Assembly (NCBI GenBank): GCA_000827495.1 | Contig: KN817560.1 | Coordinates: 190,772-254,771 of the forward strand | Length of the DNA stretch: 64,000 nt | Source of the DNA: Hypholoma sublateritium FD-334 SS-4 | Taxonomy: Eukaryota; Basidiomycota; Agaricomycetes; Agaricales; Strophariaceae | Direction of reading: 5' to 3' | Part shown: one piece after another, positions 20,651 to 28,424 of the stretch | Layout: every line of letters begins with the position of its first letter | Numbering within the stretch: the first letter of the stretch is position 1 | The notes under the pieces: generated by a model | The model's input: the letters and a program-made list of their open reading frames with translations, nothing else | Databases searched by the model: none | Told to the model about the DNA's origin: nothing | Program-made: the position numbers and the translations under genes

Positions 20651-22805
20651 CTAAAGATATTGATCCCAAAACCCTGTGGTTCCGTTATTGTTTGCCGCGT
20701 AGTGGCTGATTCCCAAGAGTTTCATGACAAGGTTATAGATTTCCACGTTTTGGAAGGTTTCCATCACGTAAGTATCGTCAGCCGTCGAGTGCCAGCCTGT
20801 CGTAGCCCGAGATGAAAGAGCCCTGTTCTGATGTTGTGCCTTGACATCAGTGGAGAATGGACCATGAGCAACAAACATAGCCTGCATCGAACGCTCCTCG
20901 TTGTCGTATCCGTGATTCTGGGATAACAAACATTCAGCTAAAAGTCGAGATGAAGTAGCGCGAGGAAAGATACATACGCCTTTGCTCATAGGGTCATCTC
21001 CATCGGGATTTGTGGTCAGAACGTACCCGATTTTAGGCACGACGTAAATGGGGGCGATACGATCGTGGTTTGCGAAGTGGTATCGTTCGGGCATCGTTTC
21101 ATGCGTGTACACTGCAAACCTCTCGGGGTTCTCGTAGGACGCTTCCAAGAGAGCATTCAAGTGCTTCGTCGTATTGGCACCACTGTGGAATCGTAATCCT
21201 ACGGAAGGCCAGCCGTCCTCGTGTTCGATGGCCTTTAATCCGTCGTAGCCCAAGATTTCATTGATGAAGACTTGCGTAGGGTGGCTTGTGTCTGTCATGC
21301 CGTGGTCGCTCACAAAAACGATGTCCACGATGTCAGTCAGATTTCTAGCTGCCAATGAGTCGTGGAGGTCCTTTGCAAATTTATCCACTTTGACCAAGGT
21401 ATCCTGAGTCGGCAAATGAGGCGTGTGGTTTGCAGAACTACACAAAAGAGAATCATACATTAACCAATTTGGAGTTGGGACCTTTCCAATGACCAGCTTG
21501 ATCAAGAGATGGTTCGTACGCTGTAAATAAAAGAAATTTTCAGTTCAGACGAGTGACCATACAAACCCTGTTGTAGTGAATTCCTCACCCATGATGAGCT
21601 GAGGTCGCTTCTCGAAAGGCAAGTCTATCCACTGCAGAACTTGGTCGAGTTTCACTTTAAGAGGAACCTTGTTCTGGAAAAGCGGCTTCGCATTACTAAA
21701 ATCGGACGCAGTGGAGGTTATAGATGATCACCTTCCAGGGGATGAAGTAGGTAGATGATGCGCCAGAAGTTGTTTTGGGAGGACCTGGCCTAGCGATAAC
21801 TGGTACATTCAGACTTTCGTTACCGATATATGACTCGACTTACCACATTAGATTTGCTGTCACTATTCCCGCCTTCTCGGCTGTCTCCCACATCTACGCA
21901 CCATGAGCTGCGTTTTCTGGGTTATTGATTGGACATACCGGCTCGCCCAGCCAAAATGCGGGATTCCACGCGGAAGATATTTGATTGTAGTGGAATTCAA
22001 CTTTCTCCACAGGATCCCAAAAATTCTAGTAGATATTTTAGTAAAGAAAGGGGATGAAGGGGATGTGATTGCGCGGAATTTACGTTGGCGACAATTCCGT
22101 GAGATTCGGCGTGAAGGCCGGTCCTATCCATGAAGGTAAGTTGGAAATATCGCAATAAAAATTAAGTTTGCTTACATTAATGCCCAGTGATTTCTTTCAA
22201 GCAATTATGGTCAATGATGTGCAACATGGTTGATTGTTAATACTCACGGGAATGTTAATGTCTGCCAAGATTATGGGTGAATTCAAGGGCGAAGAAAGAA
22301 GTTATTGAGCTCACCGGAAATATAGGTTTCATCGATTTAGCCCTTAGTCCTTTCTTGCTTAGAGCAAGCAGGTGAGGAGTTAGTCCACGGTCCAGATAGT
22401 CAGCTCTGCCACAAAAGTTTGACCATGAGCGACAGATAATAACGAGCGTACGTACCTCAAGCCGTCGATAGAAACGATAAGAACAGTGCGTTTGAACGCT
22501 TCGGTTCCATTTGAGGGGAGCCCAAGCAAAGATACAGGGTCTTTCAATGGACTGAAACCGGAGAAAAGGACTGTGCGGGCCAAGGTGCCGGTTATGAGCA
22601 GTGCGATAAATGCAGCGGCGGTGATTGTTATTCTTCTGCGTGTCGAGGATCGAGGCTGCGATTCAGTACTTTCGAAAGAGGCAATGTCTTCCGCGTCGTC
22701 ATCAGCGTTGTGCAAAAGCGCCTGCCTCTCTTCGGGGTCGAGGTCCTTAGACGTGACTGGGAGAGTCGCCGAGTGTTTTGGCATTGGAAAGCTCGAGGAA
22801 GCCAT
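20651..22805 (-). CDS. Ectonucleotide pyrophosphatase/phosphodiesterase (NPP family)
   Basis: Type II membrane nucleotide pyrophosphatase/phosphodiesterase that hydrolyses nucleotides outside the cell or in the vacuole or Golgi lumen. A cytosolic acidic N-tail with a dibasic patch (STRRR) precedes one transmembrane helix (ITITAAAFIALLITGTLA). The catalytic domain has VLIVSIDGLR, the nucleophile Thr in PTLTFPNHWALMTG, HAESHGIVAN, NFWDPVEKVEF, metal-binding DQAGH and FVSDHGMTD, and NHGYDNEERSMQAMFVAHGP. About a dozen exons. Two are micro-exons: 22261-22248 (14 nt, encoding the catalytic TLTFP) and 22193-22176 (18 nt, HWAL). All catalytic groups are intact. Convergent with the SYLF gene and divergent from the PLK4-like gene. 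Confidence 0.92.
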
Positions 22806-23161
22806 GCGGGGAGTTTATATATGCCAGCAGGATACGAAGCTCAGCACAAACTGTTGGAGACCAAGGAATGTGTGAAGTAGGGAATATGGAATGCGAGACC
22901 TGACAGGGCCAGTGGCAAGAGTCAATATACTTAGCTGTCCGCTAAATCGGGCCCGGGGCCAAGCCTCCCTAAAAAGGAAGAAATCCTGAACGTCCGCATC
23001 TGCACCTCAACTATGTACCACAACCACGCCGTCGAATTCAACCTGTAATCGCATCAAACAACGTAGACCCTTCTCGCTAGCTCTGCTTTCTGTGAGTAAA
23101 GCGTGGATCAATACTGGTCAAAATTGAAAGGTTATAGGCTTCAAGCGGGTTTCATTTCCCA
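22806..23161. promoter_or_regulatory. Divergent promoter region (NPP / PLK4-like)
   Basis: 356 bp between two divergent start codons. No strong TATA box is seen. Both promoters must sit here. Confidence 0.45.
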
Positions 23162-26036
23162 ATGAGTGCCTCCGGCTCCAGAAGCGTAGTTCCTGCGGAG
23201 AAGTTTCCTGAATTCCTCAAAGAGGTACAATACAGCCTGCGTGCAGAATGTAAGACGTGGATCTGATGCACATCGCACATCAGGATTTTGAATTGGTCAA
23301 GAAACTCCGGAATTGTGGCACCGCCATTATATATCAGGCCATTAGCACTCGAGGGCGTCTACGTAGTCGGCATATCGCCCTGAAAAAGGTAAAGCCGCCC
23401 TTTCACAAACGAATAATGATAATTAACTTGAATCAGACCGTTCGGTCAGAACCCATTGCTCCTTCTACTTCACTTCATCAAGGTCTTTGCCACCCAAACA
23501 TCGTCGCTCTTTATTCTATCGCGTCGTCAGATTCTTCGCTTTTCGATTATCATGTCCTAGAACTCTGTTCGGACGGAAGCTTACTCACTCTATTGCACTC
23601 CCGAAACCCACCCACTTTGACTGAAGCAGAACTGCGCAACGTGACCAAAGGGATCGCCGGCGCACTCGGATATTTAAAAGAAGAACGAATCATCCATGGA
23701 AACATATCTCTGCCTCATATCCTCTTAGGTCAGGGATTTAAACCAGTAAGTATCAATATACAAATTGTAACTGTAATCATAATGTGATCCTTACTAAAGT
23801 TGGCTCGGTAATTGCAGAAATTATGTGGGTTCAAAAATTCGGCTTTCTTACAGCAAAACAAGGGCTTTTTATCGCGCTCTCCCAGATTCACTACGCATCC
23901 AGCTCCGTAAGATTATTACCACTGAAATTTCGAAGTGCCAGTTTTGTCAAATTTATGTCTGCTTTTAGGGAAATGCTAGAAAACCCGCCTCGATGTGGCT
24001 TCGCCGTTGATGTATGGGCTTTGGGGTGCGTTCTGCGTACTTGTATTGGAGTGAGTTTCTCTATCTTCAACCAGCTGTGAAAACATTCTTATTTGATCAG
24101 GGGACAACTGATGATGATCTTAGCGTGATTAGCGAAAGCTTCTCCCGTGCCTTCCCCGGGCACCAGCCCGAACTAAGACATCTTATTATGTCCATGTTAC
24201 TGCACGTAAGTACGAACTTACTGCATGTGGTCAAATGCTCATACCCTCCCCAACAAAGCAATCGGACGAACGTTTAAAAGCTGAAAATATAGCAAGGCAT
24301 AACTATTTACTCGAGACTTCATGGTTTAACACTCACTCTCTCCTGGGAACTCGGAAAGGGAAGAATAAAATCGACAATCATATGCTCGACAATTTTGAAC
24401 CCTTCGGGCTCCAACCATCTCAGGGTCATTTACCAGGTAGTCAAAACAACCAACAAAAGATTAGAACAGGCAGTGATGGATCTACGCTCACAACTTATGC
24501 CACGAATTACTCTAAGGAGCGACATGTTTTGAAAGACATTGGGAATGTTCCGCTTCCACGGTTTCTTCGCTCGAGATCGACGTCCAATTTAGGAGAAAGC
24601 GTCTTATGCGAATCTGCCATTTCTGGTCATACCGTAATATCTGAAAGACAGGCCATCCCGTGGAAACTTTCGAATGATCATGACACGGACCCTCATTCTC
24701 TTGAACACACCGTGCGGCCCGGGGGATCGACGGCAAATACATCAAGTCTAGTTCACCATGTCGCTGTGTCCAACATTCCCATCGGGACAACGCGTCCCCT
24801 ACCCATCGATACTAGGTCTCTCAGTCCTAAACTACACAAGCTGGCAATGGGAACGATTACTATCTTGAAATCACGATCTCTCCTTGTCGATTTCCGCCAG
24901 AATCAACGTCGGCTGGGACTCAAAGGTGATCAGGTTATAGTTATCTCTAACCAAGGAACATCCGTGGGTTTTCTTTTTTCACGAATGAATGTCCACTCAG
25001 TTCATTCTCAAGATAATGATCTTCCATGCACCACATCTCTCTGTGCCGACTTGTCTATTGGAACCTATCCATCAATACAATCTCGACAATCTACCGTCAG
25101 TATACTGGAAGCAGTACAATGATGCAGCTAACTTCGTCGATCGACTGAGACGGAAAATTCCTTTCGTGCGTAGCTTAGTCTATGTGATTATATCACTCAC
25201 TCTTCGCAACAGATTGTCATGTATAAATCGGGAGCAAAATGTGCCATGATGTCCAATCATCCCCTCGCAGATATCGAAATTATCTTATACGACGACGATC
25301 ATTCGACAGCGGGAGCGAAAATTCGTGGCGCTCGGCCAACCTCGGAGCAAACGCCTGTTATGCGAATCCAATATTGTCGGAGACGACATTTTCTCGAGCT
25401 AGCGCAAAGGCTCACCGGTGATCGTGGTACGGAATGGAAGAAAGACTGTAAGCCCTGTCTTGGACCGAGTGATATCTCTGGTTTGCTTCTCGGGAACGAA
25501 ATAAACATACTGGGAAAGAAAGGACTCACACTCGTCTTGGATCTTCTGCAGGCCTGTCAACACATTGAGGCATCTGACCCTGTCGATCTGAAAATCACTG
25601 CTTTGTTAAAAGCGTCGCTCAAGAAACGCGGTTCCCTCTCGTCTGAGCTAGAACTGAGGCATTCGACGCAAATGCCTGTCGGAATCCGCGCTGATGACAT
25701 TCTGGAAGAAACCCGCCATCTGCCCTCGGTCGGCTGGTGTAAACGATATCCTATCCCAGGCTCTTCCAACAGCTTCAAGTATATGATGATGCTCTTCGAT
25801 GGAACGTCTCTACTGGTGGACGTTACTGCCAATTCTGTCCTGCTTTCACTTCCCAGCGGAAACCAAATCACGTAATTCTAAAAAAAAAAACCTGTTGTTA
25901 ACGAAGCTAACAAGAAATTACCATCTATAGATGCGCCCTTTCTCCACCAAACCCTTCTGAGCGCCACCCGCAAGTCGCGAAGTATACCCGCTTTATGGCT
26001 GACTTCTTATCGCTCTACGATTGCAAGGAAATTTAA
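23162..26036 (+). CDS. PLK4: PLK4/SAK-like polo protein with degenerate kinase domain
   Basis: Ten exons (23162-23224, 23284-23388, 23437-23745, 23818-23906, 23969-24050, 24101-24205, 24259-24963, 25001-25165, 25213-25871, 25931-26036) join in frame to 795 aa; intron 7 is only 37 nt. Kinase domain about residues 20-250: Lys in HIALKK, CHPNIVALYSI, the APE motif (HPAPEML) and DVWALGC are kept. But HRD reads HGN (IIHGNISLPHILL) and DFG reads GFK (KLCGFK), and the Gly loop is poor. After a linker comes a PLK4-type cryptic polo box: SLSPKLHKLAMGTITILKS, NLDNLPSVYWKQYNDAANF, VMYKSGAKCAMM, PLADIEIILYDDD. The C-terminal polo box has VGWCKRYP, MMLFDGTSLLVDV and FMADFLSLY. PLK4 drives centriole duplication elsewhere, yet mushrooms have none. 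Predicted pseudokinase or scaffold, possibly at the spindle pole body (inference). Confidence 0.85.

Positions 26037-26209: not shown

Positions 26210-28424
<2,215 letters not shown>

Follow-up and report, generated by a model that had tools for sequence, protein, structure and literature searches.

The polo-like kinases (PLKs) that come closest to the protein described here are PLK4, SAK and ZYG-1 of animals and chytrids, in which a PLK-type, kinase-like N terminus is followed by a linker, a cryptic polo box (CPB) built from polo boxes 1 and 2 (PB1 and PB2) and a single C-terminal polo box (PB3). As described in PMC12620544, the CPB forms homodimers and PB3 binds STIL, and according to PMC7653357 Plk4 is degraded by SCF-βTrCP via a motif that Plk4 itself phosphorylates. 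PLK5 of vertebrates is presented in PMC8151477 as a PLK without catalysis whose polo boxes are kept; however, it is assigned to the Plk2 subfamily in PMC7653357 and has a two-box domain, whereas in the case reported here it is the PLK4 branch that has changed, repeatedly, in fungi. The kinetoplastid kinetochore proteins KKT2, KKT3 and KKT20, for which PMC4821238 proposes an origin from an ancestral PLK and describes structural polo boxes, differ in polo-box type, partners and lineage. Finally, PLKs of the Cdc5/Plo1 type, a copy of which occurs in the cells considered here, belong to a family that is under destruction box (D-box) control in the account of PMC7653357, where the degradation of Cdc5, Polo and Plk1 is D-box-dependent. 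Here we analyzed a 64,000-nucleotide stretch of the genome of the mushroom Hypholoma sublateritium FD-334 SS-4 (contig KN817560.1, positions 190,772 to 254,771; hereafter the window), in which positions 23162..26036 of the forward strand (+) hold a gene for a PLK4-type polo-box protein of 791 amino acids.

Agaricomycetes, to which H. sublateritium belongs, have no centrioles, and in this respect the first-pass annotation of the window, which had described the host group as lacking them, restated established knowledge. Among the fungal genomes surveyed in PMC6559791 and PMC6070874, animal centriole-biogenesis proteins were found only in chytrids, and one of these two papers names Plk4 as lost in yeasts. 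Because words for basidiomycetes are absent from the main texts of both papers (and Ustilago, Cryptococcus and Coprinopsis from that of PMC6559791), the surveys may not have covered mushrooms. Budding and fission yeast are credited with a single Plk in PMC7653357. We found no description of PLK4 in mushrooms in the open-licence literature, outside which subscription papers mostly lie; automatic database names give PLK4 for proteins of Lyophyllum shimeji and Trametes pubescens, and "Cryptic POLO box 1 (CPB1) domain" for others. Compared with PLK4/SAK/ZYG-1, the window protein is without the catalytic Asp and its host is without centrioles to duplicate; further, it has a D-box-like motif, no DSG degron and a fungus-specific Arg-rich block in PB1. 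The window gene encodes a PLK4-type protein with three polo boxes, and we consider the chances about even that this protein acts as a scaffold without catalysis, probably located at the spindle pole body and probably destroyed in each cycle through the anaphase-promoting complex/cyclosome (APC/C).

The assignment of the C-terminal half to PLK4-type polo boxes, made in the first-pass annotation, was borne out by matches to sequences in the PDB. When the C-terminal 356 residues were searched against the PDB, all seven distinct sequences matched up to E 10 were PLK4 CPBs (best 1.3e-11), one of the seven being a chimera that contains the CPB, and a profile of 10 family sequences matched the PLK4 CPB in the PDB at 1e-21. 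These matches are clear although the Pfam profile search is borderline: of the two PLK4 models, taken by themselves, Plk4_PB1 gave 9.1e-6 with 26.2 bits, where the curated cut-off is 26.4, and Plk4_PB2 gave 1.4e-4 with 23 bits, where it is 26.9. PB1 (aa 444-537), which is covered by the borderline Plk4_PB1 match and by the PDB CPB matches, is encoded by 24835..25165 (+), with an intron at 24964-25012 inside it. PB2 and a helix (aa 538-656; 25213..25569, +) were delimited with the match under the Plk4_PB2 cut-off and with orthologue models, and PB3 (aa 704-787; 25711..26021, +, with an intron at 25872-25930 inside it) with the family alignment and an orthologue model that matches PB3 of human and fly PLK4.

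In structure comparison, the model of a relative resembles the human, fly and worm PLK4 structures, and in the orthologue model both the CPB and PB3 retain the PLK4 fold; the model thus shows the PLK4 arrangement and not the two-box polo domain of PLK5 (PLK1-3 type). Because the large kinase domain dominates the list, the first 50 Foldseek rows for the full-length model of the orthologue P0001 were all kinases, and the model of the kinase-less relative P0015 is the informative one. Overall, the architectural features of PLK4/SAK are present, namely the tandem PB1-PB2 CPB, the single C-terminal PB3 and an upstream kinase domain of the PLK family. To our knowledge, KKT2, KKT3 and KKT20 have no such three-box architecture. 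As a side observation, the PB3 regions of two Russulales proteins, P0046 (residues 517-567) and P0050 (residues 444-492), gave weak, sub-threshold matches to PF15016, C5orf34_C (E 0.011 and 0.072, respectively), a hint that the C-terminal domain of C5orf34 may be a polo box.

The kinase-like domain of the window protein (about aa 22-275; 23284..24330, +) is recognized by Pfam (Pkinase, 2.1e-20) and by PDB matches, the first 13 rows obtained with the full protein being PLK1, PLK2 or polo-like kinase, and the corresponding domain of P0001 was modelled with a predicted local distance difference test (pLDDT) score mostly over 85. Within this domain, alignment shows that the VAIK-type Lys is retained in IALKK (23374..23388), as are APE and DxW. 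The Gly loop is degenerate (LRNCGTAII, 23305..23331), and Ser replaces the αC Glu (PSTSLH versus MEISIH of PLK1; 23461..23478). The catalytic Asp is lost, with HGN for HRD (aa 143-145; 23695..23703), and so is the metal-binding Asp, with GFK for DFG (aa 163-165; 23827..23835). The poor Gly loop and the HGN and GFK changes, which the first-pass annotation had pointed out, are read directly in the sequence, all on the + strand. At the positions of the Lys, the αC Glu, the HRD Asp and the DFG Asp the window protein thus has K-S-N-G, and for this reason we do not class it as an active PLK4 kinase. As a control, the Cdc5-like gene of the same genome, which is a separate gene on contig 167, has intact HRD and DFG motifs (HRDLKLGN and DFGLA).

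We tabulated 75 sequences (the window protein, P0001-P0072, P0076 and P0077), leaving out the other 27 of 101 fetched, which were mostly short or unnamed. Subtracting 16 kinase-less sequences and P0053, P0058, P0066 and P0068 (fragments or unnamed partial sequences) gave 55 kinase-bearing rows, the window included. The Lys is kept in 43 of these 55 rows, a count that includes P0003, whose N-lobe columns are meaningless owing to the fusion of its model with a glucoamylase. The HRD Asp is kept in 29 and the DFG Asp in 15, and the αC Glu appears in 2, a call that is the least secure of the four because the alignment passes through a shortened region. Both catalytic Asp residues are kept in 6/55 (Taiwanofungus, Sparassis, Amylocystis, Trametopsis, Irpex and Cytidiella) and both are lost in 17/55, window included; of the 51 rows in which all four positions are aligned, none has the full Lys-Glu-Asp-Asp set. 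The four relatives nearest in the tree (P0001, P0002, P0003 and P0004), annotated by others, read HRN and have also lost the HRD Asp. We note that two Exidia glandulosa proteins, P0071 and P0072, have HGA for HRD and NFT for DFG and are 97% identical across the queried CPB region; the two copies stem from haplotypes or from a recent duplication.

For the 16 kinase-less sequences, the precomputed Pfam column of the annotated protein lists no kinase, and a rescan of 10 of them gave no kinase match. They comprise eight Russulales, six Armillaria/Desarmillaria and single sequences from Favolaschia and Sphagnurus, for which latter two a truncated gene model is possible. The first-pass annotation had proposed that a PLK4 scaffold dropped catalysis and had named the HRD/DFG states of orthologues as a check on that idea, with active orthologues counting against it. 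The idea is supported for the window protein, whose kinase looks dead, but not as one single event: the tree calls for several separate changes, and the survey result is divided, with both Asp residues in six relatives and the full set of four residues in none.

Of the 37 relatives from the first homologue search, the 36 with organism names were Agaricomycetes, as were the named relatives from the second search. We checked 13 of the names (Agaricales, Polyporales, Russulales, Atheliales and Auriculariales) and assigned the others by general taxonomy; the PLK4-type family therefore occurs in five orders of the class. The first-pass description of a retained PLK4-type protein in a fungus was consequently right in kind but too narrow in scope. 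A third search, with an Exidia query, gave Exidia proteins, one further protein and no deeper relatives. Because the homologue searches returned no animal PLK4 either, the missing matches outside Agaricomycetes are not evidence of absence.

From the CPB region of 65 of the 75 rows we built a maximum-likelihood tree, omitting P0037, P0053, P0058, P0066 and P0068 (fragments or partial sequences) and P0043, P0049, P0067, P0071 and P0072 (missed by the selection motif). Its grouping of Russulales, Polyporales and most agaric families is the expected one and indicates vertical descent. The minimum numbers of changes on it are four for kinase presence, nine for the HRD Asp and seven for the DFG Asp; the natural reading is that these were losses rather than gains, the count itself being blind to direction. 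P0028, labelled Pleurotus ostreatoroseus, falls among the Polyporales rows, and in view of this position its genome label is perhaps wrong.

To compare constraint along the protein, we calculated pairwise identities among 43 kinase-bearing rows. Over 903 pairs each, PB1 averaged 59.3% identity, the kinase 42.6% and PB2 37.9%; the averages were 44.5% in PB3 (378 pairs) and 21.3% in the linker (861 pairs). PB1 identity exceeded kinase identity in 899 of 903 pairs, in agreement with the first-pass proposal of a retained scaffold, here under constraint, and the kinase-less forms retain PB1 equally (58.7% identity to the kinase-bearing ones). Between the window protein and three related genera, PB1 identity was 57 to 73%, and the window kinase from αC to αF was 49 to 58% identical to those of three related mushrooms; over a similar stretch, the exon of the Cdc5-like kinase of the same genome shares 59% identity with human PLK1.

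Conservation is highest in a block of PB1 with the consensus SLLVDFREGERRRGxKG. In the window this near-invariant, family-specific Arg-rich block, identified from family alignments, reads SLLVDFRQNQRRLGLKGDQV (24877..24936, +). Three of its Arg residues (R447, R451 and R452 of P0001) are invariant in the 60 relatives of one alignment (A3), and the same columns are invariant in the 28 rows of another (A1), window included. Human PLK4 has Val, Tyr and Ala at these positions, which in the simplest reading suggests a partner specific to fungi.

The D-box consensus is RxxLxx[IV]xN, a statement of which was not found in our literature search, and DSGxx[ST] is the degron motif of the SCF-βTrCP type. 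By motif match, the linker of the window protein contains a D-box-like motif, RHVLKDIGN (aa 339-347; 24520..24546, +), which we predict to be an APC/C degron. Of 67 sequences, 33, among them that of the window, carry the consensus in the linker, compared with 0.34 expected from shuffled linkers, and a recount with one extra row gave 34/68, spread over Agaricales, Polyporales, Russulales and Auriculariales. Because related rows are not independent, the weight of the motif comes from its survival in a linker of 21% identity across four orders. Ten of the 16 kinase-less forms also have the motif, at residues 8-57. Five of these are Russulales, whose annotated proteins show its start at residue 16-28, compared with a position after the kinase in kinase-bearing relatives. 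In an orthologue the motif, at residue 326, sits where pLDDT is below 50, in sequence predicted to be disordered. The DSGxx[ST] degron occurs in 4/68 sequences and is absent from the window protein.

The gene itself has no internal stop between 23162 and 26036 (+), where an open frame is assembled from ten exons joined by nine GT-AG introns (exons 23162-23224, 23284-23388, 23437-23745, 23818-23906, 23969-24050, 24101-24205, 24259-24963, 25013-25165, 25213-25871 and 25931-26036) and ends with TAA at 26036. The gene, strand and coordinates given in the first-pass annotation thus hold. Its spliced model of 795 residues is also a valid frame, but its acceptor at 25000 creates a four-residue insert foreign to the family (present in none of the nine other rows of alignment A2), and we therefore prefer the acceptor at 25012, which starts the exon at 25013 and gives 791 residues. 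The choice concerns the start of the second part of PB1, and the kinase residue calls are the same under either model. Downstream and convergent with the gene are two exons of a GH15 glucoamylase (26491..27575, -; Pfam GH15, 4.3e-30 and 5.6e-12). The Psilocybe orthologue P0003 is annotated as a single protein containing GH15, CBM20, a kinase and Plk4_PB2, which is most likely a gene-model fusion or error; its joining of the two genes indicates that the neighborhood is shared with Psilocybe and backs orthology. Upstream, a divergent gene at 22380-22814 (-) gave no Pfam match (E up to 0.01).

When the C-terminal 356 residues were searched against the whole genome, this locus was the only one returned among the best candidates scored, and no second, intact PLK4 appeared. 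The canonical POLO_box profile gave two matches, consistent with a second PLK, the Cdc5-like gene on contig 167, which has canonical polo boxes. The Plk4_PB1 profile had no match in the genome, its own locus included, a negative that is worthless alone, given the borderline score and the intron that interrupts the domain. Similarly, SAS-6_N, STIL_N and Tcp10_C had no match in this genome in searches without a positive control; the POLO_box matches show no more than that a conserved domain can be detected by this method, and these negatives are not proof of absence.

How such a protein might work can be sketched from what is known of PLK4. The CPB would dimerize as in animals and dock on a partner via the fungus-specific Arg-rich block of PB1, and PB3 would bind another partner where the animal protein binds STIL. 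By bringing the two partners together, the scaffold would help the acentriolar spindle pole body to be built or duplicated. Its abundance would be set through APC/C by the D-box-like motif of the linker, replacing the animal route of autophosphorylation and SCF-βTrCP, which would be unusable here because it needs PLK4 autophosphorylation, impossible for a dead kinase. With timing freed from catalysis, residues of the active site could be lost, as could the whole domain in some lineages. We offer only tentatively, and regard as rather doubtful in its full extent, the wider scenario in which mushrooms kept the master regulator of centrioles after centriole loss, and in which it was turned several times into a catalysis-free, APC/C-timed scaffold that duplicates the spindle pole body, so that the ancient job of PLK4 would have been to organize the pole, with the kinase dispensable.

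Several results weigh against a catalysis-free scaffold at the spindle pole body. PB2 is on average less conserved than the kinase, and some of the six relatives with both Asp residues may, judging from these residues, still be active. The kinase-less state is known from annotated proteins, and two of its four cases are single species. PB3 seems absent in several Polyporaceae and Exidia models, by true loss or through split gene models (in the Polyporales P0033-P0036, P0057 and P0064, the annotated proteins stop ~190-215 residues past the LLVDFR block of PB1). Of 68 sequences, 34 are without the strict D-box-like motif, including all Mycena and Lactarius rows, and, as reported in PMC6559791, Drosophila Plk4 failed to localize to the spindle pole body when it was expressed in fission yeast.

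The spindle-pole location of the PLK4-type scaffold, which is probable, derives from PLK4 biology only, and nothing in this analysis links the protein to the pole. The same PLK4-derived scaffold could have a job elsewhere, with septa, cytokinesis and meiosis as examples, much as polo boxes of PLK origin acquired a new site in the kinetoplastid kinetochore; we regard this as possible if on the unlikely side. The most conserved block of PB1 being fungus-specific suggests a new partner, and the centriole-partner profiles SAS-6_N, STIL_N and Tcp10_C found no match, though without a positive control; in addition, PMC4821238 describes the divergent polo boxes of KKT2 and KKT20 as sufficient for localization to the kinetochore. 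However, the orthologue model retains the PLK4 fold in both the CPB and PB3, and the D-box-like motif suggests timing by the cell cycle; both speak against such a job elsewhere.

That the protein is an active kinase with unusual chemistry, in which the retained Lys and the folded domain bind nucleotide and phosphorylate slowly, appears improbable. CASK is a pseudokinase with GFG for DFG and yet is active, the fold is kept in the P0001 model, and across the 55 kinase-bearing rows the Lys (43), the HRD Asp (29) and both Asp residues (6) persist to varying degrees; but the window protein is without both Asp residues, the glycines of the Gly loop and the αC Glu, and in 16 relatives the annotated protein has no kinase domain. 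That the gene is a relic decaying into a pseudogene is very improbable: the kinase changes fast, the linker has 21% mean identity and PB3 is apparently lost in some models, but the ten-exon frame is intact, the gene is present in five orders, and PB1 is conserved against the three related genera, family-wide at 59% and equally in the kinase-less forms. A gene-model artefact, in which the true transcript would encode intact HRD and DFG, is scarcely credible, since although the exon model was predicted from genomic DNA, the two positions lie inside exons 3 and 4 amid conserved family sequence and P0001-P0004 are also without the HRD Asp. The intact frame, the family-wide conservation of PB1 and the residues of the relatives led us to set aside both the pseudogene and the artefact as unlikely.

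Overall, the results indicate that PLK4, called absent from non-chytrid fungi in the surveys of PMC6559791 and PMC6070874, persists in a large group without centrioles. With PB1 conserved and the kinase decaying in parallel lineages, the family constitutes a natural experiment that separates the PLK4 scaffold from catalysis, and its kinase-less forms offer a clean way to ask what the CPB and PB3 do alone. For fungal cell biology the protein is a candidate spindle-pole factor, and through it the evolution of spindle pole bodies from centriolar centrosomes would become directly testable in transformable mushrooms.
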